From assembly GCA_025054955.1 (NCBI GenBank), contig JANWZE010000099.1, positions 1-49,483 on the forward strand: DNA of 49,483 nt, written 5' to 3'. The stretch is from Blastocatellia bacterium. GTDB taxonomy: Bacteria > Acidobacteriota > Blastocatellia > HR10 > J050. Both the position numbers and the translations under genes were made by a program. Shown one piece after another: positions 20,245 to 49,483 of this stretch (position 1 is the stretch's first letter; every line of letters starts with the position of its first letter). The notes beneath the pieces were generated by a model that was not told where the DNA came from, ran no database searches, and saw nothing but the letters and a program-made list of their open reading frames with translations.

Positions 20245-21840
20245 CTACTGAAACGTGAGCTCTTTGAAGAAGAAGAAATCACCTGAGGGCGGAATCCGCA
20301 CACTCCCGACGCGCCGGCTCATCACTGCCACATTTGATGGATACCAGAGGTAAATCCACGGCACGTCTTCCGCCACAATCTCTTGAATGCGTCCGTACAG
20401 TTTCACCTGTTCCTGGCGATCCTGGGTTGCCTCGGCTTGCTCAATCAGGCGATCCACTTCGACGTTGCGATAGCGCGCGCGGTTGAGAAAACCGGTCCGC
20501 TCCCGCTCACTGATGGTTGGGTCAAAGGGAATTGAGCGCGAACCGAAAGCAGCTTTGAAAATATCTGGAAAGTAACCGCCAACCAACCGCAGAAATCCCA
20601 TCTGATACTGCCCGCGATTGAGAAAGTTCGCATAGGTCTGAAACTCATACGACTGCAATTCAACCTCAATGCCAATGTTGCGCAGGTGCTCTTGCACGAT
20701 CGTAGCAATCTGACGGGGCTGCTCGGCTGAGGATGTTTTCAGGCTTAGGCGTAAGCGCGGCTGCGGGCCATCGCCGTCCGGGTCAGGGTAACCTGCTTGA
20801 TCGAGCAATTGGCGGGCCATCTCAGGATCATAATCGTACCTTTTGACATTGGCATTATAGGCCCAATGAGTCGGTGGCAGGACGGTGCTGGCCAATCGCG
20901 CTTGCTGCTGCAGCAGGTTCTTGATGATCGTCTGACGATCTAATCCGTAGGCAATCGCTTGACGGACGCGGCGGTCGGCCAGCACTGCGTCAGATGTATT
21001 CAAGAGTAGGTATTCCACCGGCGCGCCATCAGCAATGGTCACGTTCAACGTTCCGAGCCGACGCTGCTCTTCAACAAAATCCGGCGACAATCGCGTGTTG
21101 AGCGCAAAGTGCACAGAGCCGCTCAGTAACTCTAAGGCGAGCGTGGTCGGGTCGCGCACAACCTTCAGCCGGAGCCGTTGAATACGAGGCGCACCTCCAA
21201 ACGCCGTGGGGAACGCTTCCAAATCAATGTGCTGCCCTTGAACAAAGTTGACGACACGAAACGGACCCGTGCCAATGGGATTGGCGGCAGCCGTCGGCCC
21301 CGATCCTTCCGGGATGATGCCAACTGCAACTAAATCTACCAACAGCCCTGGGTATCGTTCACGACAGCGAAACACGACTGTACGGTCATCCACCACCTCG
21401 ACTTTGCGAAGCCGACTGAACGCGGCACGCTTGGGCGAATCAAATCCGGGCGCGATCATCGTCTCAAATGTGTATGCAACATCGTGAGCCGTGAGTTCTT
21501 TACCGTTGTGAAAGGTGATGCCGCGCGGTAGAAAGAACGTGAAATTTTTCATCTCCGCGTCCACTTGCCACCGTTCGGCCAATTCGGGAACCAACTCGAA
21601 CCGCTCGTTTTTCTGTACCAGCGTATGGTAAATGAGCTGTTGAACGCGCGCTGTATCTGACGTGGTCGCGCCACGTGGATCAAACGTCAGCGGCGCTGAC
21701 TCAATCGCGACGACCAGCGTTCCGTGATCAACCTGCCCGGAGCCAACACATCCGACACCACCACAGCAGAGCATTACAAGCCAGCACACGAGTCGCCCCA
21801 GAGCCGGTCGGTGAAGCTGACGTCGGGCGTTGAACTGCAT
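20245..21840 (-). CDS. ABC transporter peptide/nickel-type substrate-binding protein
   Basis: About 531 residues from the ATG at 21840; a longer frame to 21990 is unlikely to be translated because it lacks a signal peptide. The N-terminus has a hydrophobic segment ending in GGVGC, consistent with a lipoprotein or secreted protein although the lipobox is not canonical. The rest is a family 5 solute-binding fold (DppA/OppA-like): GTLVVAIESAPLTFDPRG, RVQQLIYHTLVQKNE, a GTGPFRVV motif and the long C-terminal lobe. It would deliver peptides or a similar solute to an ABC importer, but no permease or ATPase genes are next to it. The ligand cannot be predicted. Confidence 0.9.
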   Translation of the reverse strand: MQFNARRQLHRPALGRLVCWLVMLCCGGVGCVGSGQVDHGTLVVAIESAPLTFDPRGATTSDTARVQQLIYHTLVQKNERFELVPELAERWQVDAEMKNFTFFLPRGITFHNGKELTAHDVAYTFETMIAPGFDSPKRAAFSRLRKVEVVDDRTVVFRCRERYPGLLVDLVAVGIIPEGSGPTAAANPIGTGPFRVVNFVQGQHIDLEAFPTAFGGAPRIQRLRLKVVRDPTTLALELLSGSVHFALNTRLSPDFVEEQRRLGTLNVTIADGAPVEYLLLNTSDAVLADRRVRQAIAYGLDRQTIIKNLLQQQARLASTVLPPTHWAYNANVKRYDYDPEMARQLLDQAGYPDPDGDGPQPRLRLSLKTSSAEQPRQIATIVQEHLRNIGIEVELQSYEFQTYANFLNRGQYQMGFLRLVGGYFPDIFKAAFGSRSIPFDPTISERERTGFLNRARYRNVEVDRLIEQAEATQDRQEQVKLYGRIQEIVAEDVPWIYLWYPSNVAVMSRRVGSVRIPPSGDFFFFKELTFQ

Positions 21841-21853
21841 AGCACGGACGAGA

Positions 21854-21882
21854 CTTATATCACAGTGACGATGCTCCGTCCA
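21854..21882 (-). promoter_or_regulatory. Putative promoter of the substrate-binding protein gene
   Basis: On the minus strand TGGACG and TATAAG are separated by 17 bases (4/6 and 5/6 to consensus). The -10 box lies 13 bases before the ATG at 21840, so the leader would be about seven bases. Confidence 0.45.
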
Positions 21883-21923
21883 GCACAGCAGTCTCAATGT
21901 GAACTCCACGTGAACGCCGGATT

Positions 21924-22025
21924 GCACAAAAATTATGCAAAATGCTAAACCTGATTGAAAAATCGGAATTTGAGACGCGCTGAGCCCCACTTTTCCACAG
22001 ACTTTTCCACAGATATTGTGGAAAA
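21924..22025. other. DnaA-box cluster next to an AT-rich tract (candidate origin or DnaA locus)
   Basis: Three copies of TTTTCCACA, which fits the relaxed DnaA box TTWTNCACA, lie at 21991-21999 (+), 22003-22011 (+) and 22017-22025 (-). The last two form a perfect inverted repeat with a five-base spacer. A one-mismatch box (TTATGCAAA) is at 21933-21941. The 51 bases from 21924 are about 31% GC by count, much lower than the surroundings. The stretch lies in a 453-base gene-free gap at which gene orientation switches from minus to plus. No dnaA, dnaN, rpmH or gidA is nearby, so the origin call is inference. Confidence 0.5.
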
Positions 22026-22293
22026 CTCAGCCTACCTCTTCGAGAGGCGTCACGCTGAAAAACGGTTTTCAACCTTGAAAGAATGTCTCAGACAGGGTGG
22101 GTTAGTGGCTGTTACCGGCACGCTGATACGGGTCGGCCCAACCACGAGTCCGGTGCTGATTCCAAAAGAGTTAATCGGTTCCATGTCACCCAAGCGGGCA
22201 CGCCTGTGGCATGGCACAGCAGTTGCACAACTGACTAGCCGGTGCAAGACCATGGGTGCCTTATTGAACAACGTGTTGAGCAATGAACACTCC

Positions 22294-23538
22294 ATGTCGC
22301 ACTTTCTTATCTTGAGCCGCGATACCGAGTTGGCCAAGAGCATTCAAGCAACGTTGCGACGTGGCAACTATCGCTCGACTATTGTCCGCAATCCCCGGCA
22401 GGCCACGCTTGCCATTCTAAGTCATCGCGACATTGAAGCGGTCATCTGTGACGCACGACTCCGATTTGGCCGTGAGGAGGAAAAGGCGTTTTATCAACTG
22501 AGGCAAGACCTGATTGGTTTGAGCATTCCCTTGGTGCTGTTGGTGGACCCGCAAGACGAACTGCACTGGCACCGAGCCAATCAATGGGCTACAGATGAGT
22601 TTGTGGCCACACCGGCTGACGAGGAAGAATTGCTGGTGAGAATGAAAGGGGTGCTCTGGCGTAAACAGATGCAAGCCAGCCCACATCGCCGCACTCCGTC
22701 GCCGGACTTACTGCAAGGATTCATTCATTACGTCACCAATGATCTGGAAACGCGCTTTGAAACCCATTCGGTCGCCACATTGACTTTGTTGGAAGCGCAG
22801 GGCGCATGGGATTTGTTGATGGCAGAGGATGATCGCTGCGACAGTCTGACCAATCACCTGCTAGAGCTGTTGGCCGATCACCTGCAACGGGAGGATCGGC
22901 TGGCTCACCATGGTCGCGTGACGCTGGCTGTGTATATGCCGGGCCACGACGTTGACCAAGTCCACGGCGTGTTGGAGTCACTGTCGGCCACGTTTCAGCG
23001 AATGATCGGCGTCGGCTTGTGCGCCGGTCTGGTCAGCTTTCCACAACACGGGAGCAGTTACAGTGAATTGATTCTAGCGGCCGAGCACGCCTTAGCCCAG
23101 GCTCGAACCGACGGCTCCATGCGCGTGGCCGACCAGCCTACCAATCAACAGCCACAGGCTGACCGGCGCAAGATTCTAATTGCCGATGATGATCCCTACC
23201 TGGGTGCGTTGCTCGAAGCAACGTTCAAGGCTCTTGGATACCAAACCATTGTGGCTGACAATGGCCGCACGGCCATTGACTTGATTCAAACGAATCCACC
23301 GGACCTGGTGATCTTAGATCATCTGATGCCCGGCCTGACCGGCTTTGAGCTTCTTGAACAGCTCCGTGAGCAAGCTGGTGATCGGCAATTGCCTGTGCCG
23401 GTGATCATGTTGACGATGATGACGGCGCAGACAGACATTGTGCGCGGCTACTCGCTCGGCGTGGAGGATTACGTGGGGAAACCGTTCAACCCGCATGAGC
23501 TGATTGCCCGCGTCGAGCGCGTCTTAGGGATGCGATGA
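22294..23538 (+). CDS. Response regulator with degenerate GGDEF domain between two receiver domains
   Basis: 414 residues from the ATG at 22294, where the receiver fold begins (MSHFLILSRDTELAKSI). The first receiver (about 1-120) lacks the acidic pair and the conserved lysine, so it is degenerate. Residues about 140-285 have the GGDEF fold: LLADHLQREDRLAHHGRVTLAVYMPG, then GLCAGLVSFPQHG and AAEHALAQAR. The active-site GGDEF is replaced by HGRVT, so cyclase activity is not expected. A complete receiver follows at about 290-414 (DDD near the start, phospho-acceptor Asp342, lysine in VGKPF). It may bind a nucleotide or a partner protein rather than make c-di-GMP. A start at 22252 is possible. 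It leads the phosphorelay cluster. Confidence 0.85.
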   Translation: MSHFLILSRDTELAKSIQATLRRGNYRSTIVRNPRQATLAILSHRDIEAVICDARLRFGREEEKAFYQLRQDLIGLSIPLVLLVDPQDELHWHRANQWATDEFVATPADEEELLVRMKGVLWRKQMQASPHRRTPSPDLLQGFIHYVTNDLETRFETHSVATLTLLEAQGAWDLLMAEDDRCDSLTNHLLELLADHLQREDRLAHHGRVTLAVYMPGHDVDQVHGVLESLSATFQRMIGVGLCAGLVSFPQHGSSYSELILAAEHALAQARTDGSMRVADQPTNQQPQADRRKILIADDDPYLGALLEATFKALGYQTIVADNGRTAIDLIQTNPPDLVILDHLMPGLTGFELLEQLREQAGDRQLPVPVIMLTMMTAQTDIVRGYSLGVEDYVGKPFNPHELIARVERVLGMR

Positions 23539-23598
23539 GGTCGAACGTATCTTGGAAACGCGATGATGTCGAGCACGTCTTGGCAATGCGATGATGAG
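23515..23598 (+). repeat. Three 28-bp tandem repeats across a stop codon
   Basis: Units at 23515-23542, 23543-23570 and 23571-23598 share the pattern GAGCGCGTCTT...GATGCGATGA with several differences. The first unit holds the end of the upstream gene, including its TGA. The third ends just before the start of the next receiver gene. The unit length is not a multiple of three. Confidence 0.6.
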
Positions 23599-23604
23599 GA
23601 CTTG

Positions 23605-24048
23605 ATGATGGACGCACAACGAATCTTGCTGGTCGAAGACGAACCCGACATCCAAAAGGTGGCAAAGCTGAGTCTGACGCTTGTCGGAGGTTACGAGGTC
23701 GCCGTTGTGGACAATGGGATCGAAGCCATCCGTCTGGCTGAACAGATCAAGCCCGATGTGATCCTGCTGGACGTGATGCTGCCGGACATGGACGGCTATG
23801 AAACGCTCACACGAATCAAACAACACGACCACCTGAAAGATATTCCTGTGTTGTTTATCTCGGCTAAGGCTCAGCAGAGTGAGGTCAGTTATGGGCTCAG
23901 TTTGGGCGCTATCGGCTACATCACCAAACCATTCGACCCGATGACCCTGCCCGCCCAGGTGCAGCAGTTTTTGCGAATCTTGGAGGGTAGACCGATGGAT
24001 TTGCCTGAACTCTTCTCCGAAGAAGAACCGAGCACGATGATTTCATGA
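23605..24048 (+). CDS. Single-domain response regulator
   Basis: 147 residues from the ATG at 23605 (a second ATG follows at once); GAGG lies seven bases upstream. It consists of one CheY-like receiver with the acidic pocket in LLVEDEPD, phospho-acceptor Asp56 in DVILLDVMLPDMDG, the switch serine in LFISAKA and the lysine in YITKPFDP. A short acidic tail follows. There is no output domain, so it should act by protein contact or as a phosphate shuttle. It sits between the degenerate-GGDEF regulator and a soluble hybrid kinase. Confidence 0.9.
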   Translation: MMDAQRILLVEDEPDIQKVAKLSLTLVGGYEVAVVDNGIEAIRLAEQIKPDVILLDVMLPDMDGYETLTRIKQHDHLKDIPVLFISAKAQQSEVSYGLSLGAIGYITKPFDPMTLPAQVQQFLRILEGRPMDLPELFSEEEPSTMIS

Positions 24049-24073
24049 AGAATAACAACAATGAGAAGAATCT

Positions 24074-25285
24074 ATGAAATCACAGAGCAATCACCATGAT
24101 ATCGAACGTCTGAAGAACGAATTTGTCTCGCTTGTGTCGCACGAATTGCGCACGCCGTTGACTTCGATCAAAGGCTCATTGGGATTGATCCTAGGCGGGG
24201 CGTGCGGCGAGCTGAACAATGATCTGCGTGATCTGTTGACCATCGCCTATTCTAACAGCGACCGCCTCATCAAGTTGATCAACGAAATTTTGGACCTGTC
24301 CAAGATCGAAGCCGGGCAAGTCCCCTTGAAAACCGCCCCAACCGATTTAACCGAAGTGGTTGAACAAAGTGTCATGGAGATTGGCGGATTCGCGCAACAA
24401 CGAGGGGTCCTGATTGTCACCTCGTTGGAGCCAGACCTACCTTTGGTTCAAGCTGATGCCGACCAAATTCAACGCGTGCTGATGAACTTGCTATCGAACG
24501 CATTGAAATTCAGTCCGGCTGATGATCAGGTGGTGATCTCCAGTGAATACCGCGACGGTTGGGTAACCATTCGGGTCAAAGATCATGGCATGGGCATTCC
24601 GCCGGAATACCATGATCGAATCTTCAATAAGTTTCAGCAAGTCCAATCAGTGGTCACGCGTAAACTGGGCGGCACAGGCTTGGGACTCGCTATCTGCAAA
24701 GCCATCATTGACCAGCATGGCGGCCGAATCGGCGTAGAAAGCGAGCCCGGAGCGGGAAGCTGCTTCTACTTTTCATTGCCCATCGCGCCACCCACTGCGA
24801 CTCGTGAGCCACGAGCGCCCGCCCACCCCATCACACCTGCGCCGCCGACGGAGACGCAGCCGCCAACCGGCATCAGAGGCGGCAACCGACCACGGAACTC
24901 ATTCGTGCTCATGGTGGATGACGATCCGGGATTGCGCATGGTTGTCTCCCGCATTGTTCAGCACTCAGGCCATCAGGTGGAAACGGCGAATAATGGTGAA
25001 GAAGCAATTGAGAAGGTCAAGAAACTGCATCCTGACTTGATTATCCTGGACATCTTGATGCCTGTGCTGAGCGGTTTCGGCGTCGTGCAAACACTCAGGC
25101 GCCATCCAGACACACGCCACTTGCCGCTGTTGGTCCTGACCACCAAGGACCTCAACGACGCCGAAAAAGAAGCGCTTCGACTTGGCCCGACCAAATTCCT
25201 CACCAAATCGCTGGTCACCGTAGAGACGCTCACGCTCGCAATGAACGAATTGTTGCAACACAGGCTCGCGGAGGTAACTGCATGA
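24074..25285 (+). CDS. Soluble hybrid histidine kinase with C-terminal receiver
   Basis: 403 residues. The HisKA domain begins almost at the N-terminus, with His23 in SHELRTPL, followed by an HATPase domain (about 120-235) with N box, DHGMGIPPEYHDRIF and [10 protein letters not shown] proline-rich linker (about 238-270) leads to a receiver (about 275-395) with DDDPG and LDILMP. The usual receiver lysine lies in a diverged FLTKSLV context. There is no sensor or membrane segment, so input must come from partner proteins such as the preceding regulators. Its stop overlaps the start of the next gene (ATGA), which encodes an Hpt protein. Confidence 0.93.
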   Translation: MKSQSNHHDIERLKNEFVSLVSHELRTPLTSIKGSLGLILGGACGELNNDLRDLLTIAYSNSDRLIKLINEILDLSKIEAGQVPLKTAPTDLTEVVEQSVMEIGGFAQQRGVLIVTSLEPDLPLVQADADQIQRVLMNLLSNALKFSPADDQVVISSEYRDGWVTIRVKDHGMGIPPEYHDRIFNKFQQVQSVVTRKLGGTGLGLAICKAIIDQHGGRIGVESEPGAGSCFYFSLPIAPPTATREPRAPAHPITPAPPTETQPPTGIRGGNRPRNSFVLMVDDDPGLRMVVSRIVQHSGHQVETANNGEEAIEKVKKLHPDLIILDILMPVLSGFGVVQTLRRHPDTRHLPLLVLTTKDLNDAEKEALRLGPTKFLTKSLVTVETLTLAMNELLQHRLAEVTA

Positions 25286-25656
25286 CGTCCCATGTGGAAC
25301 AAATCTTCCGGCAAGAAATGCTCAAGCTGCGCTCTCAATACATTCAGCATAGTCTCAGTCAACTGCAGACCGTGCGCTCGGTGCTGCAACGCTGGGACCA
25401 ACCGCTGCTTGACATGGAAGAACTCACTCAACTGATGGTCATCGCTCACAAACTGCGTGGCTCAGGAAAAACCTACGACTTGCCAGAAGTGACCAGTTGG
25501 GCTGGATTGCTGGAGAGCGATTTGAAGACGGTGCTGGACAATCCCCAACGACTCACACCGGAGCGCCGTCGCACGCTCTTGTCCATCGTGACGCGCTTGC
25601 ACTCAATCATGAGCGCAGCAGCTCGTCAGGATCGAGAAGAGAGGATCGAGTCTTGA
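25282..25656 (+). CDS. Hpt-domain phosphotransfer protein
   Basis: 124 residues, all helical. The phospho-accepting histidine is His56 in IAHKLRGSGKTYDLPE, the usual Hpt signature. It overlaps the hybrid kinase gene by four bases (ATGA), so the two are translationally coupled. It probably accepts phosphate from the kinase receiver and passes it to one of the upstream receivers. A long imperfect hairpin covers its stop codon. Confidence 0.85.
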   Translation: MTSHVEQIFRQEMLKLRSQYIQHSLSQLQTVRSVLQRWDQPLLDMEELTQLMVIAHKLRGSGKTYDLPEVTSWAGLLESDLKTVLDNPQRLTPERRRTLLSIVTRLHSIMSAAARQDREERIES

Positions 25657-26212: not shown

Positions 26213-27088
26213 TCAGTTCTCATCGTGTCGTGGCTTTCGCGCCGAGATGCGCGCGCTCCAAACGTTCCCGATAAGACGGTCCCGATAACGATTCCAGAGC
26301 AACTGCGCATCGCTGTTGTCACTGTGGTTCATACTGGCCAGGAAACCCGCCAGTTGCTCTTCGGTGTAAACCATTCGCGCGGTCACGGCCACGTCAATCA
26401 AGCCAGCGTCTCGCATGGCCTGCAAGTACTCTGACTCCTTGATCGCCCCGGCGACACAGCCGACCAGCGCATCAACGCTTTGAACGATTTCATCAGGCAA
26501 GTCATCGCCCAGCACGATGTCCGAAATAGAGACGCGCCCGCCCGGCACGAGCACACGAACGACCTCGCTGAACACGCGCCGCTTGTCCGGCGCCAGATTG
26601 ATCACGCAGTTGGAAATCACCCAATCCACGCTCTCATCTTCGACGGGCATCTGTTCGGCATCGCCTAACCGAAATTCAACGTTAGTCGCGCCCGCAGCGC
26701 GCGCGTTCTCTCGCGCCCGCGCGGTCATGGCCGGCGTCATATCAAGCCCGATGACGCGACCCGTCGGCCCGACTTTCTCCGACGCCAACAAACAGTCAAT
26801 ACCGGCTCCTGAACCAATATCCAACACAACCTGCCCCGCCTTGAGCTCCGCAAACGAGAGCGGATTGCCGCACCCAAATGCTGAGACCACTGCCCCGTCA
26901 GGCAGCATCCGCAATTCTTCTGCGGCGTATCCCACAACGCTGGCCAGCTCGGTCCGCTTCCGTTCCAGCGTGATGGGAACCGGCGTAGTCGAACCGGTCG
27001 AAGCGCAACACGAGCTTGCATCAAGAAGTTTCGTATACCCTTCCCGGACGGCTTGCTTGATTTCATCAGGTGTCAACGTCCGATTCAT
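26213..27088 (-). CDS. arsM: Arsenite S-adenosylmethionine methyltransferase
   Basis: 291 residues. It methylates trivalent arsenic using S-adenosylmethionine, producing methylated and partly volatile arsenicals. The cofactor motif is VLDIGSGAGIDCLLA (about residues 88-102). The three cysteines that bind As(III) in the family are present: Cys73 (FGCGNPL), Cys161 (SNCVINL) and Cys211 (GCVAGAI). An N-terminal pair, Cys27-Cys28, is also seen. GGAGG lies six bases before the ATG. It lies 12 bases after marR. Its strand is opposite to the surrounding genes. Confidence 0.96.
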   Translation of the reverse strand: MNRTLTPDEIKQAVREGYTKLLDASSCCASTGSTTPVPITLERKRTELASVVGYAAEELRMLPDGAVVSAFGCGNPLSFAELKAGQVVLDIGSGAGIDCLLASEKVGPTGRVIGLDMTPAMTARARENARAAGATNVEFRLGDAEQMPVEDESVDWVISNCVINLAPDKRRVFSEVVRVLVPGGRVSISDIVLGDDLPDEIVQSVDALVGCVAGAIKESEYLQAMRDAGLIDVAVTARMVYTEEQLAGFLASMNHSDNSDAQLLWNRYRDRLIGNVWSARISARKPRHDEN

Positions 27089-27100
27089 AAATCCTCCATG

Positions 27101-27607
27101 TTATTTCGATTTCTTGCGAATCTTCATCAATGAGGTTGGCGTCGAGCCGGCAGCGAGCTTGGTTTGCCGCCACTGGTCTACCGCCTTGCACAGCTCGCGC
27201 AAGGCCGAGAGCAACGCCGCGCGCTCTGCCGGTTTGATCTTTCTCAGAATCTCTTTCTCTGTCGCCAGAATCTCGCCCTGAATCTGACCGAGCAACGTCC
27301 GACCAGCGGGCGTCAATTCCACCCAACAGAGTCGCCGATCATGCGCGTCCACATCCCGATGCACTAATGCCTTCGCGACCAGTTGATCCACGATTCGTGT
27401 CATTGTGCTAACCGTCAGATGAAGCTGCCCGGCCAGCTCGCCCATCGTCATGCGTCCACGCTCGCCGATTGCCTCCAGCGCGTAACATTGCGAGACTGAC
27501 ACCCCGTGACAACAAATCTCGTTCCGGTCACGAAATTGATACTTCTTCACCAACTCGCTGACGACTTGATGGAGCGCTCGCGCTTGTTGTTCTAATGTTT
27601 GGCTCAT
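27101..27607 (-). CDS. MarR-family regulator with a cysteine cluster, probable arsenic sensor
   Basis: 168 residues from the ATG at 27607 (AGGA lies upstream). A winged helix occupies about residues 38-130, with the recognition segment LHLTVSTMTRIVDQLVAK and the wing DAHDRRLCWVELT. Near the N-terminal dimer region is ICCHGVSVSQC, giving Cys32, Cys33, His34 and Cys41. This arrangement could bind As(III), so the protein may sense arsenic directly. It is first in the marR-arsM-arsN2 operon, and a palindrome overlaps its promoter, which fits autorepression. Sensing is inferred from context and cysteines. Confidence 0.85.
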   Translation of the reverse strand: MSQTLEQQARALHQVVSELVKKYQFRDRNEICCHGVSVSQCYALEAIGERGRMTMGELAGQLHLTVSTMTRIVDQLVAKALVHRDVDAHDRRLCWVELTPAGRTLLGQIQGEILATEKEILRKIKPAERAALLSALRELCKAVDQWRQTKLAAGSTPTSLMKIRKKSK

Positions 27608-27626
27608 TACTATGTCATCCTGATAT

Positions 27627-27639
27627 TTGTAGGCTACAA
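27627..27639. promoter_or_regulatory. Putative MarR operator
   Basis: TTGTAG-G-CTACAA is a perfect palindrome with a one-base centre. It lies just downstream of, and overlaps by one base, the -10 box of the marR-arsM promoter. Binding there would block polymerase. Confidence 0.55.
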
Positions 27640-27667
27640 GTATTGACGGATGCAACTGACGTGTCAA
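27639..27667 (-). promoter_or_regulatory. Putative promoter of marR-arsM-arsN2
   Basis: On the minus strand a perfect TTGACA is followed after 17 bases by AATACT (4/6 to TATAAT). The predicted transcription start lies within the TTGTAG palindrome, about 25 bases before the marR ATG. Confidence 0.6.
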
Positions 27668-28043
27668 GTCGTTCTTGTTTCCCAAAGAGAACATCGTCAG
27701 CGGCGCCCGTCACCACCGCGATGCTGGCTAACAAAACAATGCTCGTCATGGTAAAGCGAGCCACATTCGCGCTCGCGAACCTGGAAAAATACGTCATCTC
27801 TTGCTTTGTGCGTCGCTGCTGAGTCATGCTTTTCGCTCGTTTTCCACATCAACGCTAACGGTAGACAGAAATGGTATGGCTCAATCTGCACAATCCATAG
27901 ATTCGTCGCCTGGCCTGAGAAGGGCAGACCCGTTTTTTTCTGACCGCGCAACGCCAGCCACAACGGGAATACACAATCGCTGGTCCGACATACGCTACCA
28001 ATGGCAACGGACTCATCCGGCGACAATCAGCAAGGAACACCTC

Positions 28044-43079: not shown

Positions 43080-43313
43080 ATGAAGCACTCAAAAGATTGG
43101 GACGTGCGCCGGGTCATCAACGGCGACGCGCTGACGCTGACACAGGAATGGCAAGGACAAACGGCCACTATTTCGATCCGCAGGTGGGCAACTTGCGCCA
43201 CATCCGAGGAGGAGGAGTCGGGAGCCAGGAGGCGGGAATTTAGCAGCCGGGGTACGAACGATGAAAATTCTTCATGGGAATCGTCCATGTGTATGGCCCG
43301 CCACGAAGCATGA
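43080..43313 (+). CDS. Small hypothetical protein between receiver and RHS genes
   Basis: 77 residues from the ATG at 43080, which has GGAGGAG eight bases upstream. The first ~40 residues (MKHSKDWDVRRVINGDALTL...) look like a folded beta-rich unit. The rest contains an EEEESGARRRE segment encoded by a purine-rich tract like that at 378-422, possibly a repeat insertion. No family is recognised. It lies 17 bases before the RHS gene and is probably in the same transcript. Confidence 0.6.
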   Translation: MKHSKDWDVRRVINGDALTLTQEWQGQTATISIRRWATCATSEEEESGARRREFSSRGTNDENSSWESSMCMARHEA

Positions 43314-43330
43314 AAACTTGGGAGGAGACT

Positions 43331-46300
43331 ATGATGAAGAAATTTCACACCAACACGATTTCGCAGAGGCTCACGCAGGCGAGCAGACTGGTTCCAGCAG
43401 CAGACACGATCCGCGCTTATCATTCCAGCATGGCTAGGAGTTTGCTTGTCGGGATGCTGCTCGGGCTGCTGCTGTGGCCAGCAAGTGGAGCGAGGCTGGC
43501 AACAGGCTTGACCACAGCATCCACATCAGCGGCGACGCTCACACAAACAGCCGTGCCTTGTCAAATTGAACCGAACCGTGGCCGGCAGGCAGCAACCGTT
43601 TCTGTCACACTCACCTTGGGGCCGGATGTAGCACTCAACCCACTGGCCCTAGCACTCCTATTGTTTCAACCCGAACTCGTGCTGAATGCGACCACAGTCA
43701 GCTTTCGGCCGGCAGGGATTCAGGCTCGATTATTCCAGGTTAGTCTGGACCCGACAGGAAAGGTCACCTACACGGGCGCGTTCGTTGTTGACTCGAATGC
43801 TGAAGTCGGACCACGGGATGTCACTCTACGGGCTGACTTATCGCCGTTGGGCGGACCGGTGTTGGAATATGGTTGCTCACGCGCCTTCACGGTGGAAGGT
43901 GGTGGATTCGTTTCCTTCTACAACGGTCCGCCGATTTTCACGCTGCCGATGGAGAATCCCAGTGAGCCGTCCTGCGGCTGCCGCGCGGAGCCGACCTACA
44001 GTCGCGGTATCGGTCAAGTCGAGGTCCCCGAACGATGTGGCCGCCGACGGCCGCCGATCATCAACATCCTGTATCAGGGCATCAGCAATGACGCCGGCGC
44101 TGCGACCGTCTTCCTCCACAGCGGCGAGTTCAATCACATGGTGACTGATCTGGAGATTCCCGGACGCGGGTTTAATTGGAAATTCGAGCGAAAATATCGC
44201 AGCGGTGTCATCTTCGAAGGACCGCTCGGCCACAACTGGGAGTTCAACTACAATCGGCGATTGTTTGTCCAACCCGACGGCGCAGTCGTGCGCATGGACG
44301 GTTACGGACGGGCCGACCGCTATGAGCTCGTTGAGAATCGCTATGTTTCGCCCAACGGGTTTTATACCACGTTGGTGAGAAACCGTGATGGCTCATTCAC
44401 CGAGCGCGACCGTTCTGGCACGACCGTCACCTACGCCGTGCCCTTCCCCAACGGCCTGGCGCCGATGACCAGCCTGAGCGACCGGGACGGCAACACAATG
44501 CGGTTTATCTACAATGACCTCGGCCAGTTGGTTCGCGTGCTGGACACGCTCGGTCGGCCTATTGAGTATCGCTACAACGCGGATACAGGGCGTTTGATCG
44601 AAGTGCAGGATTTCGCCGGTCGCTCCATCAAATTCAGTTACGACGGGGACGGCAATTTGGTGGCCGTCACGTCGCCTGCCGTCACCGGCACACCCAACGG
44701 CAATGACTTCCCGCAGGGCAAAACTGAACGGTACGGTTACATCGTCGGTTCTGGTGTGCACGAACAACTGCAACACAATCTGGTCAGCATCACGGCGCCA
44801 AACGAAGTCGCCGCAGGCGGACCGCCGCGTATCCGCATCGAATACGACACCAATCCCCGCTCGCCCACGTTCGAGCGCGTGCTGAGGCAAACCATCGGCG
44901 GCATCAATGAAACGGGCGTCCCGGCAGGCGGCACGATCAGCTATCAGTATCAATCGCTGGGAACGGCTCCAGCCAATGATTTCATCACGCCGGTAGCGCA
45001 AACCACTGTAACCGACCGCAATGGGAATCGGACCGAGTATCAGTTCAATCAACTGGGAAACATCGTGCGTATCCGCGAGTTCACCAATCGTCAGATTCGA
45101 CCGGACGATCCGGAGTTCTTCGAGACGCGCTATGAATATAACAAGGATGGAGAGGTGACGCGAATCATCTATCCTGAAGGCAACTCGACCGAGTACGTTT
45201 ACGATAGCAACAACCCAGATCGCTTGCAGCAAGGCAATATCCTACGCGAGATTCGCCGGCCCGACGCCCGACGCGGCGGCGATCAACAGACGATCATCAC
45301 GAGCTACACGTATGAGCCGATCTACAATCAAGTGCGCAGCGTTACTGAAGCGCGCGGTAATGACCCGCGCTATCTACCGCAAAACGGCGGCGCGACCTCT
45401 CCGGCTCGATATACTACGACCTACACGTTTGATTATCAGGAAGGCAATAACCTGGCGGCGCTGGCCACGCGAACCGGCCTCACTCAGAGCCAGGTTTCGG
45501 CGCTGCTTCAAGCGGCAGGCGTGCAGCTCAACCTTGGCGACCTCAACGGCGACGGTGTGACCAATCAAATCAACGGCAAGGTTATCCGGCAGCAATCGCC
45601 TACGGTGCAATTGCTGCCCGGCTCGAATCAAGCCACCGTTGAAGGGGCCACACAACAACCGATTCAAGAGCTCTACACCTATAATCGAGTCGGACAGATC
45701 ACCAGGAAAGTTGATCCCGAAGGCAACGTCGAGTTGTATGACTACTATCCGCAGAATGACCCGGATGGCGACGGTCGGGATTTGACGCCGGGCCTCAACG
45801 CCGACCCATTTGGTTATCTGAGGAGCATCACGACCGACGCAGTGAGTGCCGCCGTGCGCAATTCGCGCACCAACCCGCCGCCAGCGCAGATTCGGCTTCG
45901 CTTCTTCTATGATCGCGTCGGCAATGTCATCCGCGAGATTGACGGGCGCGGCGTAGCGACTGACTACAGCGTTAATCAACTCAATCAAGTCGTGCAGATC
46001 ATTCGCGCCGCCGACGTGAGCGCGGCGCTCGGCAACCCGGAAGAGCCGCGCTGGGGCGGCTGCGCGGATACGAATTTGGTTGAATGTCGCGCCGGCATGG
46101 TCGCATTCCGCTACCTGGTCAACATCTTCTACGATCACAACAACAATGTGATTCGCCGCGAGGTGGAGAATCGTGACTCGAACAACCGGGCGTTGGTCGG
46201 CGATTTCGTCGAAACCGCCATGCGCTACGACATCCTGGACAATCTCATCGAGGTGCGCGAAGAGATTAGCGCGCAGCCGAGGCTCGAGCAGGTGACGCGG

Positions 46301-49300
46301 TATCGCTACGACCGGAATGAGAATCTGGTGCTGGAGATCAGTCCGATGGCCGTCGCAAACCGACAGCCGAGTAACGTCGTTTCGCAAGTGTTTGATGAGC
46401 GCGATCTGCTGTTCACTGTAACGCGCGGGGGCTTGACCGATCAATTCGTGCGCCTGGACGCTCACGCCGACATCCCGGAGTTGAGCCAGATCACCGACAG
46501 CCGCGAGATTTCTACGACATCGCGGGTCTATGATGGCAATCGGAACTTGACTATGTTCATTGACGCCGCGGATAACACCGGCGACGGTCAACCGGAAGCG
46601 ACCATCACGCTCTATGACGGCTTCGACCGGCCCGTCTCGACTATTGATGCTGTCGGCAATCAGAGCTTCATCAACTATGATCCGGCAGGCAACGTGGTGC
46701 GCCTGTCGCACTTCGGCCCCGTAGGCGGCCCAACTCCGCGCAACAATGCAGCCGCCACGTTTACACAGCCGCTCACGCCCCAATCATTTCGTCAGCCGCT
46801 GCTCGGTCAGGTCGAATACAAGTACGATGAATTGAGCCGCCTCTTTGAGCAGAACGATATTCTGTTCGATTATCGGCAGAGCGGCGTTACCTACGTTCGC
46901 CCGCCCGTGCTAACAGACGGGCCACTAGGCGCAGCGAACGATGGCCGCGTGGTGACGCGGTTTGAGTATGACCGCAATAGCCGCATGACGTTTCTGGTCG
47001 AAGATGATCTGGACACATCGCGCACGTTCTATGACGGCGTCGGTCGCATCATTCGTCAGGTTGATCCTGAGCAGAATGAAGTGCTCACGACGTATGACGA
47101 CAACAGCAACATCGTGCGCGTGGTCGAAGTGGACGTCACGCAACCTGCGGACGTGCAGGCAGGCCGCGTGCCTAATCTGCGCCAAACCTTCACCACGATC
47201 AACGTTTATGACTCGCTCAACCGGCTGATTCGCACAACCGATAATGTCGGTCAGACGTTGCGCAATCATTACGACAGCCGAGACAATCTGATCTTCACCA
47301 GCGACGCACAACACTCGGCCAATCCGGCTGATCTGATTGCTGACCCGCTGGGCTTGGTTGCGGCAACAACGCGAATCAATCGGCCTGGCAACACGATGGA
47401 GATGTTCTACGATGGCCTTGACCGCAAGCTGGCCGACGTGCTCCATCTGCGCGTGGACGGGCAAGGCCGCAATCCCATTGACACAACCAATCCGGCCAAT
47501 CCTGATGGGTTGATCTGCATTGACTATGAGTGGGACTTGAACAATCGGCTGGTGGCGCGCGCCGATGATGGCAGCATGCCCGGCGATCAGAACACGAGCA
47601 TCGGCATCATCGAAGCGACCAATCCCAGAGGCAACGTCTGCCGCTACGTTTACGATGATCTGAATCGCATGACGCGAGAGATCATGGATGACGGCACGAT
47701 CAACGTCGCCGAGTATGACGCTGATGACAATCTGGTCCGCGTGATTGATGCAAACGGCAATGTCATCCGCAACACGTATGATGGCATCAACCGGCCGGTC
47801 CGAGCTGACGTCACGCGAGCCACGTCCTCCACGCCGCATCCAGCCGGCGGCTTCAAAGACCCGAACCTCACCTGGTCAGTCATCGGCACGACGCTCCAAC
47901 AGGTCGAATACGATGGGCTGTCGCGGCTGACACGCGCGTTCGACAATAACGACCCGAATGATCCGGGCGACGACGCGACGGTCACGGTAGCTTACGATTC
48001 GTTGGATCGAAAACTGGAAGAGGTGCAGAACGGCTTGGCTGTCTCCAGCCGCTTCGCCGGCGATGACAATCGCGTTGGCTTGGTCTACCCCAACAACCGA
48101 GCGATCACGCACACGTTTGATCGCCTCGACCGTCTCAATCAGGTCACCGAGGGCGGAACACGGCTCGCCGATTACGATTACATCGGCCCTGATCGCGTGT
48201 TGGAGCGCAGCTTCTCAAACGGCGTTCGGCTGACGTATCTTGACAACGCGCGGCAGCAGGATGTCGGATACGATGGCGTGCGGCGCATCGTGCAGCACCG
48301 ATTCCTCCGCGCGAATAACACGCTCGTGGCCGGATTCACCAACGATTTCGACCGCGCCAACAACCCCGTGTCTGAAGTCAAGCAGCATCTGGGCAACCTG
48401 CGCGAAGATTACGCTTATGATTCAGCCTATCGCTTAGGACGCTTTGCCCGGCAAGGTGAACAGCCGGACACCTGGCAGATTGACGGCGTCAACAACTGGG
48501 TCAATCGCCGTGGCGTGCCGAATCGGGCAAACAACCTAAACGAGTACGTATCGCTGGCTGGCGTGGCCCGGCTGCACGATGACGAGGGCAATCTGATTGA
48601 CGACGGCACGTTCCGCTACGAATACGATTTTGCTAATCGGCTGCGGCGCGTGGTGCGCAAAGCCGATAACGCCGTCATCGCCGTTTATCATTACGATGCA
48701 TTCGATCGTAGGACCGAGCGTATCGTGACCAACGCTGGCGCATTGAATGACCGCGTGCGTTATCTTTACGACGGCTGGCGGGAGATCGAAGAGCGACGAG
48801 CTAATGCGACCCAGCAGTACGTTTACGGCGACTGGATAGACGAGCCGCTGACGCTCGACCGCGATGACAACAATGACGGCCGAGTAGACCGGACGTTCTT
48901 CTATCATCAGGATGCGAAGACTTACGTTGTAGCTTTGACCGACACCAACGGCATGGTGGTGGATCAAGTGATGTACGATGCGTATGGTCGGCCCAGCGCG
49001 TTGAGCGCAGTCGGCAATCCGTATCTGTTCACCGCTCGCCGGTATGATCCTGAGACGGGTTTCTACTACTATCGCACCCGGTACTACGATCCGCTGGTCG
49101 GGCGCTTCATCACCCGCGATACAATCGGAATGTGGGGTGATGAAACTGAGTTTGGCAATGGGTATTCGTATGTTGGCAACGCTCCGGTTTCGTTGACTGA
49201 CCCCTTCGGCCTGGCCAAAACCCTTATAAGCAGTAACTCCAACTCAGACAATTGCATCTGCGCAGGCGGGGCAGGAGACACCCCAGGGCCACTCTTTGTC

Positions 49301-49483
49301 ACAACCGTCAAGAGCATTAAATCCAACTCAGACAATCGCATCGGTGTGGGCGGGGCAGGAGACACCCCAGGGCCGCTCTTTGTCACAACCGTCAGGAGCA
49401 CTAAATCCAACTCAGACAATCGCATCGGTGTGGGCGGGGCAGGAGACACCCCAGGGCCACTCTTTGTCACAACCGTCAAGAGC
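43331..49483 (+). CDS. Giant RHS/YD-repeat surface protein, 3' end outside the window
   Basis: An open frame of at least 2051 codons from ATG 43331 or 43334 (GGAGGAG just upstream) to the window edge. Frame was checked at the start, at several internal points and at the end. A long N-terminus with a hydrophobic signal segment (about residues 35-55) is followed by an Ig-like part and a cysteine-containing stretch. An RHS N-terminal region (FNHMVTDLEIPGRGFNWKFERKYRSG, near residue 266) leads into dozens of YD repeats. The conserved RHS core end lies near residues 1903-1961 (YDPETGFYYYRTRYYDPLVGRFI...DPFGL). Aspartate-rich loops (DRDDNNDGRVDR) may bind calcium. Beyond the core it has 28-residue repeats instead of a recognisable toxin. 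It is probably secreted or surface-bound. Confidence 0.93.
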   Translation, partial: MMKKFHTNTISQRLTQASRLVPAADTIRAYHSSMARSLLVGMLLGLLLWPASGARLATGLTTASTSAATLTQTAVPCQIEPNRGRQAATVSVTLTLGPDVALNPLALALLLFQPELVLNATTVSFRPAGIQARLFQVSLDPTGKVTYTGAFVVDSNAEVGPRDVTLRADLSPLGGPVLEYGCSRAFTVEGGGFVSFYNGPPIFTLPMENPSEPSCGCRAEPTYSRGIGQVEVPERCGRRRPPIINILYQGISNDAGAATVFLHSGEFNHMVTDLEIPGRGFNWKFERKYRSGVIFEGPLGHNWEFNYNRRLFVQPDGAVVRMDGYGRADRYELVENRYVSPNGFYTTLVRNRDGSFTERDRSGTTVTYAVPFPNGLAPMTSLSDRDGNTMRFIYNDLGQLVRVLDTLGRPIEYRYNADTGRLIEVQDFAGRSIKFSYDGDGNLVAVTSPAVTGTPNGNDFPQGKTERYGYIVGSGVHEQLQHNLVSITAPNEVAAGGPPRIRIEYDTNPRSPTFERVLRQTIGGINETGVPAGGTISYQYQSLGTAPANDFITPVAQTTVTDRNGNRTEYQFNQLGNIVRIREFTNRQIRPDDPEFFETRYEYNKDGEVTRIIYPEGNSTEYVYDSNNPDRLQQGNILREIRRPDARRGGDQQTIITSYTYEPIYNQVRSVTEARGNDPRYLPQNGGATSPARYTTTYTFDYQEGNNLAALATRTGLTQSQVSALLQAAGVQLNLGDLNGDGVTNQINGKVIRQQSPTVQLLPGSNQATVEGATQQPIQELYTYNRVGQITRKVDPEGNVELYDYYPQNDPDGDGRDLTPGLNADPFGYLRSITTDAVSAAVRNSRTNPPPAQIRLRFFYDRVGNVIREIDGRGVATDYSVNQLNQVVQIIRAADVSAALGNPEEPRWGGCADTNLVECRAGMVAFRYLVNIFYDHNNNVIRREVENRDSNNRALVGDFVETAMRYDILDNLIEVREEISAQPRLEQVTRYRYDRNENLVLEISPMAVANRQPSNVVSQVFDERDLLFTVTRGGLTDQFVRLDAHADIPELSQITDSREISTTSRVYDGNRNLTMFIDAADNTGDGQPEATITLYDGFDRPVSTIDAVGNQSFINYDPAGNVVRLSHFGPVGGPTPRNNAAATFTQPLTPQSFRQPLLGQVEYKYDELSRLFEQNDILFDYRQSGVTYVRPPVLTDGPLGAANDGRVVTRFEYDRNSRMTFLVEDDLDTSRTFYDGVGRIIRQVDPEQNEVLTTYDDNSNIVRVVEVDVTQPADVQAGRVPNLRQTFTTINVYDSLNRLIRTTDNVGQTLRNHYDSRDNLIFTSDAQHSANPADLIADPLGLVAATTRINRPGNTMEMFYDGLDRKLADVLHLRVDGQGRNPIDTTNPANPDGLICIDYEWDLNNRLVARADDGSMPGDQNTSIGIIEATNPRGNVCRYVYDDLNRMTREIMDDGTINVAEYDADDNLVRVIDANGNVIRNTYDGINRPVRADVTRATSSTPHPAGGFKDPNLTWSVIGTTLQQVEYDGLSRLTRAFDNNDPNDPGDDATVTVAYDSLDRKLEEVQNGLAVSSRFAGDDNRVGLVYPNNRAITHTFDRLDRLNQVTEGGTRLADYDYIGPDRVLERSFSNGVRLTYLDNARQQDVGYDGVRRIVQHRFLRANNTLVAGFTNDFDRANNPVSEVKQHLGNLREDYAYDSAYRLGRFARQGEQPDTWQIDGVNNWVNRRGVPNRANNLNEYVSLAGVARLHDDEGNLIDDGTFRYEYDFANRLRRVVRKADNAVIAVYHYDAFDRRTERIVTNAGALNDRVRYLYDGWREIEERRANATQQYVYGDWIDEPLTLDRDDNNDGRVDRTFFYHQDAKTYVVALTDTNGMVVDQVMYDAYGRPSALSAVGNPYLFTARRYDPETGFYYYRTRYYDPLVGRFITRDTIGMWGDETEFGNGYSYVGNAPVSLTDPFGLAKTLISSNSNSDNCICAGGAGDTPGPLFVTTVKSIKSNSDNRIGVGGAGDTPGPLFVTTVRSTKSNSDNRIGVGGAGDTPGPLFVTTVKS
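49235..49483 (+). repeat. 84-bp tandem repeats in the RHS C-terminus
   Basis: The word AACTCAGACA recurs at 49241, 49325 and 49409, giving an exact 84-base (28-codon) period. Units encode SNSDNRIGVGGAGDTPGPL followed by FVTTVKS or FVTTVRS. The second and third units are almost identical at DNA level; the first is more diverged. The array is cut by the window end, so the copy number is unknown. Confidence 0.85.

Follow-up and report, generated by a model that had tools for sequence, protein, structure and literature searches.

The window analysed here is a 49,483-bp stretch of a Blastocatellia draft genome. It contains a gene-free gap of 453 bp (21841–22293) between two divergently oriented genes, and three exact copies of the DnaA box TTTTCCACA lie within this gap. 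The gene to the left encodes an extracellular solute-binding protein of family 5; its reading frame is open to 21990, and a lipoprotein-type signal makes a start at 21840 likely. The response regulator gene to the right has a frame open from 21955 and probably starts at 22294. These genes and the parts of the element between them are as follows, with the boxes numbered by analogy with the DARS sites of E. coli.

20245–21840, minus strand: extracellular solute-binding protein family 5 gene, outside the element (PF00496, E 5e-81)
21928–21975, no strand: AT-rich tract, 27% GC by base composition, overlapping the partner motif and the middle element
21933–22026, plus strand: whole composite of partner motif, spacer and three DnaA boxes (match to model R1, described below; 63.1 bits, E 1e-16, model positions 3–95 of 96)
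21934–21952, plus strand: partner motif TATGCAAAATGCTAAACCT, consensus TGTGCAAAATGCTARAAGT, from positional conservation in 37 aligned loci
21961–21974, plus strand: middle conserved element AATCGGAATTTGAG, weakly similar to the IHF consensus WATCAANNNNTTR
21991–21999, plus strand: DnaA box III, TTTTCCACA, exact match
22003–22011, plus strand: DnaA box II, TTTTCCACA, exact match, 12 bp from box III
22017–22025, minus strand: DnaA box I, TTTTCCACA inverted, exact match, 14 bp from box II
22294–23538, plus strand: response regulator gene, outside the element (PF00072)

Boxes II and I are perfect inverted repeats of each other, separated by a 5-bp loop. The window holds six exact copies of TTTTCCACA where dinucleotide shuffling predicts 0.38 ± 0.62, and none of 300 simulated windows contained a three-box cluster within 40 bp; the cluster is thus beyond chance. 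Its 35-bp string (21991–22025) occurs once in the 4.69-Mb draft genome, in which the 9-mer itself is found 60 times, compared with 9 for a reversed control. A preliminary description of this DNA had reported three boxes within 35 bases, two of them inverted, in a 453-base gene-free gap, with 16 of the 18 genes to the left on the minus strand; each of these statements was borne out, the last by the same count from the list of open reading frames. The AT-rich tract that it placed beside the boxes is also present, at 27–28% GC on recomputation instead of about 31% (the lowest 51-bp stretch, 27.5%, starts at 21921). Genes to the right are mostly on the plus strand, with exceptions at 26213–27088 (methyltransferase) and 27101–27694 (MarR family). 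Nearest the site on that side is a phosphorelay cluster (22294–25656) of response regulator, second response regulator, hybrid histidine kinase and Hpt protein, conserved within the same family. At the far end, a plus-strand frame of 2070 aa (43274–49483) runs off the contig, and the smaller minus-strand frames within it are probably spurious.

An RNA at the site is unlikely. A search of the site against Rfam gave no match, the covariation term was -0.08 and the sole hairpin consists of the inverted boxes themselves; a structured or non-coding RNA was rejected on these grounds. A tRNA search of the window found none.

The DnaA boxes, the AT-rich tract and the divergent gene strands had together been read as a replication origin. 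A complete oriC is present elsewhere in the same genome, on contig C31 at about 25.0–26.7 kb, where dnaN, dnaA, parB and parA follow in succession (confirmed with NCBIfam models). It contains seven exact TTTTCCACA boxes, five in a 176-bp segment of the dnaN–dnaA interval and two just upstream of dnaA, and a DnaA-trio tract of repeated TAG (TAGTAGTAGTAGTAG; repeat AGTAGTAGTAGTAG) abuts one of them. No TAG repeats were found beside the boxes in the window, although the 27% GC tract does adjoin them, and the site has no neighbours of the dnaA, dnaN or gidA type. Cumulative GC skew was calculated for the window and for the first 40 kb of C31. A minimum near the site would have supported an origin; the curve instead falls throughout the window, from 0 to -2.15, with no turn at 22 kb, while on C31 it turns from falling to rising at the dnaA locus. 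In Pyrinomonas (G023, contig C1) the skew rises steadily over 360 kb through the orthologous site, again with no turn. The skew of one further genome, G060, was too noisy to use. Skew, gene content and the intact oriC on C31 led us to reject the origin reading, and a second or alternative origin at this site, for which the boxes, the AT-rich tract and the strand switch had spoken, is highly improbable given the lack of a skew turn and of a TAG-repeat unwinding tract.

The boxes proved to be one end of a larger unit. An exact scan for the triplet in 84,980 species genomes returned 57 stretches, mostly from Blastocatellia and other Acidobacteriota, and alignment of their flanks, which lay outside the search pattern, exposed a second conserved block, TGTGCAAAATGCTARAAGT, starting 54–56 bp before box III. 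The conserved unit, at 21933–22026 in the window, thereby extends to the left of the three boxes in a 92-bp layout: a TGTGCAAAATGCTA(R)AAGT motif at a constant distance of 54–56 bp, box III (+), 12 bp, box II (+), 14 bp, box I (-). When the window was scanned with a matrix for the partner motif, this copy scored 22.3 and the runner-up 9.2. Read on its minus strand, the motif looks like one more DnaA box, a degenerate fourth (TTTTGCAYA). Between it and box III lies the middle element, which ends in a nearly invariant TTR in the aligned loci; its IHF-like offset scored highest in Blastocatellia (6.1 of 9, against a mean of 3.2) and second best in other classes, so that its likeness to an IHF site is suggestive only. 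A short inverted repeat, TTGCAC...TATGCAA, is located just left of the partner motif (21922–21940) and is also present in G001 and G002, which belong to the window's family.

To describe the whole unit we used a sequence model, R1, with 96 positions and 22 training rows, none from E. coli and two (L068 and L090) from outside Blastocatellia; genome G166 matches it by construction, because row L068 is the same site. Within the class, R1 matched 154 of 162 genomes and all 53 genera (E ≤ 0.01), some of the matches, weaker ones, being oriC box arrays. At E ≤ 1e-4 it matched 198 of 396 sampled genomes of the phylum, many over model positions 3–94, which include the partner motif. At 20 distant sites individual boxes have decayed and the 12/14 register is kept in most. 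When box spacing was left free (1–20 bp), 43 full composites were recovered, of which 29 had exactly the (3,5) spacing and 12–13 were off by 1 bp. No full-length copy was found in Chloracidobacterium (G020, G024 and G028, with oriC-type matches only) or in several Pyrinomonadaceae genomes; in Chloracidobacterium the composite seems to have been lost or to have diverged strongly. One composite lies outside the phylum, in an uncultured Geobacteraceae (L090, 1900–2100), with the partner CTGTGCAAACCGG and the 12/14 box geometry. The preliminary description had tied its reading to conservation of the boxes in relatives, and they are indeed conserved in Blastocatellia and other Acidobacteriota.

The genes around the element are far less constant. 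Homologues of the solute-binding protein adjoin the site in G001, G002 and G006, an association found in the same order only; in G006 this protein is the sole neighbour in common with the window site, while the response regulator adjoins the site in G001 and G002. At 24 other Blastocatellia loci the 3′ end of ftsK is at the site, reaching it from the left in f4 and f8 genomes and from the right in Pyrinomonadaceae, and the opposite side carries mqnA, an OMPdecase-family gene or a ComEA-like gene. The element thus flanks the ftsK end on either side (L036, 7069–9705, is an example), which implies that it was inverted or moved relative to ftsK and still adjoins it. Beside 19 further sites, mostly in other classes, we found no match to the solute-binding, response-regulator, ftsK, mqnA, OMPdecase or ComEA-like reference proteins. 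A constant element in changing gene company argues for a cis-acting chromosomal site and not for the promoter of one gene.

These neighbourhoods bear on two further readings. In the window's order the site separates two divergent genes, and in some relatives the partner motif is similar to an extended -10 element (TGCTATAAT), as might be expected of a DnaA-controlled promoter region serving the solute-binding protein and response regulator genes. The neighbours are nevertheless wholly different between families, and ftsK ends toward the left side in f4 and f8 genomes or the right side in Pyrinomonadaceae, which leaves no constant gene served in either direction; the promoter of a fixed gene was rejected because the neighbours change, and control of these two genes is an unlikely function. 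Somewhat less likely still is a role in some other cell-cycle process acting on DNA, for instance FtsK-linked chromosome segregation or organisation of the terminus, with another protein using or sharing the DnaA boxes. The adjoining ftsK ends in 24 loci of several families and the conservation of the partner motif beyond any DnaA box would suit such a role. On the other hand, ftsK lies on another contig than the site in the window's genome and is not adjacent at 20 loci mostly from other classes, and the distance of the site from dnaA varies.

We next compared the triplet with the DARS sites of E. coli. Each has a core of three DnaA boxes in which box I points against the other two; the spacing is the same at both sites, and head-to-head AAA+ contact of DnaA leads to ADP release (PMC5742627; PMC8682772). 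The DARS1 and DARS2 cores of strain MG1655, read from the sequence, both run + / 14 bp / - / 12 bp / -. Read on the minus strand, the window triplet runs + / 14 / - / 12 / -, identical to both: three boxes, with box I in the reverse orientation to the other two, and start-to-start distances of 14 and 12 bp. Shared with DARS1 and DARS2 are also a mostly intergenic position away from oriC (here a 453-bp gap on a contig without dnaA, with oriC on C31) and more than one copy in some genomes; the strongly conserved partner region beside the core may be a counterpart of their accessory regions. Applied to 9 kb of E. coli DNA preselected for DARS, R1 gave its best match to the DARS1 core (E 0.0005) and its next best to the DARS2 core (E 0.012).

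The likeness has limits. Unlike DARS1 and DARS2, the acidobacterial element has the conserved partner motif TGTGCAAAATGCTA(R)AAGT at 54–56 bp, no recognisable Fis sites, other flanking genes and boxes of the TTTTCCACA type. A matrix scan did not find the partner motif in DARS1 or DARS2, so the conserved region beside the core is present but non-homologous to their flanks by this measure; GTGCAAGCCGC, a candidate beside DARS1, was dropped because its matrix score was unremarkable (-8.8). In addition, the 12/14 geometry recurs in the dnaA-dnaN spacer, that is oriC, of about 12 Pyrinomonadaceae loci, which shows that geometry alone is no proof of DARS function. Those origins differ from the window site in adjoining dnaA and dnaN, in having more boxes and a DnaA-trio tract, CTACTACTACT, and in lacking the partner motif. 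The triplet is followed by the CTACTACTACT tract in L047, L049, L051, L056, L065, L070, L077, L079, L081, L085, L093 and L099. Because the oriC of some relatives shares the geometry and the partner motif is absent in E. coli, we claim a DARS-type layout and not proven membership. No Hda was recognised in the window's genome, where a second PF00308 match is an IstB/DnaC-like ATPase. In G060, a DnaA-box cluster (C1:2278449-2278535, L128) lies about 1 kb from the gene of a small DnaA-domain ATPase, Hda-like or DnaC-like.

DARS sites are known from E. coli and related beta- and gamma-proteobacteria (PMC5742627), and B. subtilis has neither DARS nor any known equivalent (PMC13220808). For Acidobacteriota, literature searches that covered few subscription papers did not turn up any DARS-like site.

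Position and copy number were examined in the same terms. In four closed genomes the site lies at 0.52, 0.67, 0.87 and 0.78/0.98 of the replichore from dnaA; these matches are weaker (E 1e-5 to 1e-8), and the two lowest-scoring genomes, which are related, still have the 12/14 register. By the same measure DARS1 and DARS2 of E. coli are at 0.66 and 0.41. In G060 the site and dnaA share a contig and are 229 kb apart. Several Acidobacteriota carry multiple full-length copies: three in G217 (C5, C6 and C20; L248–L250), two each, away from dnaA, in G356 (C4 and C7) and G274 (L263 and L264), and two or more in G247, as E. coli carries both DARS1 and DARS2.

That the locus binds DnaA, which the preliminary description had offered as its other reading, a datA-like site or similar, is supported because the boxes are the 9-mer of the genome's own oriC and because conservation of the element across the phylum does not depend on gene context. 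Its datA-like version came close, but the layout fits DARS rather than datA. A titration site, or one promoting DnaA-ATP hydrolysis, would soak up or inactivate DnaA after its own duplication and so delay re-initiation. This is the function that B. subtilis DnaA-box clusters outside oriC are thought to have (PMC13220808), and a conserved high-affinity cluster away from oriC with an IHF-like middle element would be compatible with it. Titration, however, needs neither a fixed 12/14 register nor a partner at 54–56 bp, both of which are kept across the phylum, and we came across no description of B. subtilis clusters with a fixed DARS-type register or a partner motif. E. coli datA likewise combines a DnaA-box cluster outside oriC with IHF, which the middle element may resemble, but its boxes flank the IHF site over about 260 bp (PMC4585315) without the I/II/III core arrangement; in the window the IHF-like element sits between partner and box III and the boxes are arranged differently. 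We consider a titration or datA-like function possible, at perhaps one chance in a few.

Taken together, identity of the geometry with DARS1 and DARS2, fixed spacing in the composites and the ranking of the DARS cores by R1 make a DARS-like site the most likely function. We favour, by a slight balance of probability, a chromosomal, non-coding element of DARS type that controls DnaA and is not an origin, a DARS-like function being about evenly matched with all its rivals together. The geometry could have arisen by convergence. In such a site DnaA would fill the three boxes in a fixed frame, as their identity with the boxes of the genome's own oriC suggests. Protomers on boxes I and II would make head-to-head contact through their AAA+ domains, and DnaA on box III would extend the complex. 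A second factor, or further DnaA, presumably bound at the partner motif 54–56 bp away, would complete it, possibly with an HU/IHF-type bend between partner motif and boxes. By analogy with E. coli, and judging from the geometry, this arrangement would drive ADP off DnaA, and the freed protein would reload ATP for the next initiation. Whether DARS-type reactivation with a partner protein at TGTGCAAAATGCTA(R)AAGT operates across Acidobacteriota is a closer call, which we put a little short of even.

For the interpretation of genome sequences, the case shows that a cluster of DnaA boxes at a strand switch should not be annotated as an origin unless skew and gene context are taken into account. 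If the proposed function is correct, nucleotide recycling of DnaA by chromosomal sites would be ancient or convergent and not a proteobacterial peculiarity, and the recharging step of E. coli may have a much greater age or a wider distribution than has been assumed. The exact DARS core geometry, together with a new partner motif in a distant phylum, would constitute sequence-based evidence for widespread DnaA recharging. It would point to a second DNA-binding factor and open the question to experiment in a phylum that grows slowly and has been little studied.
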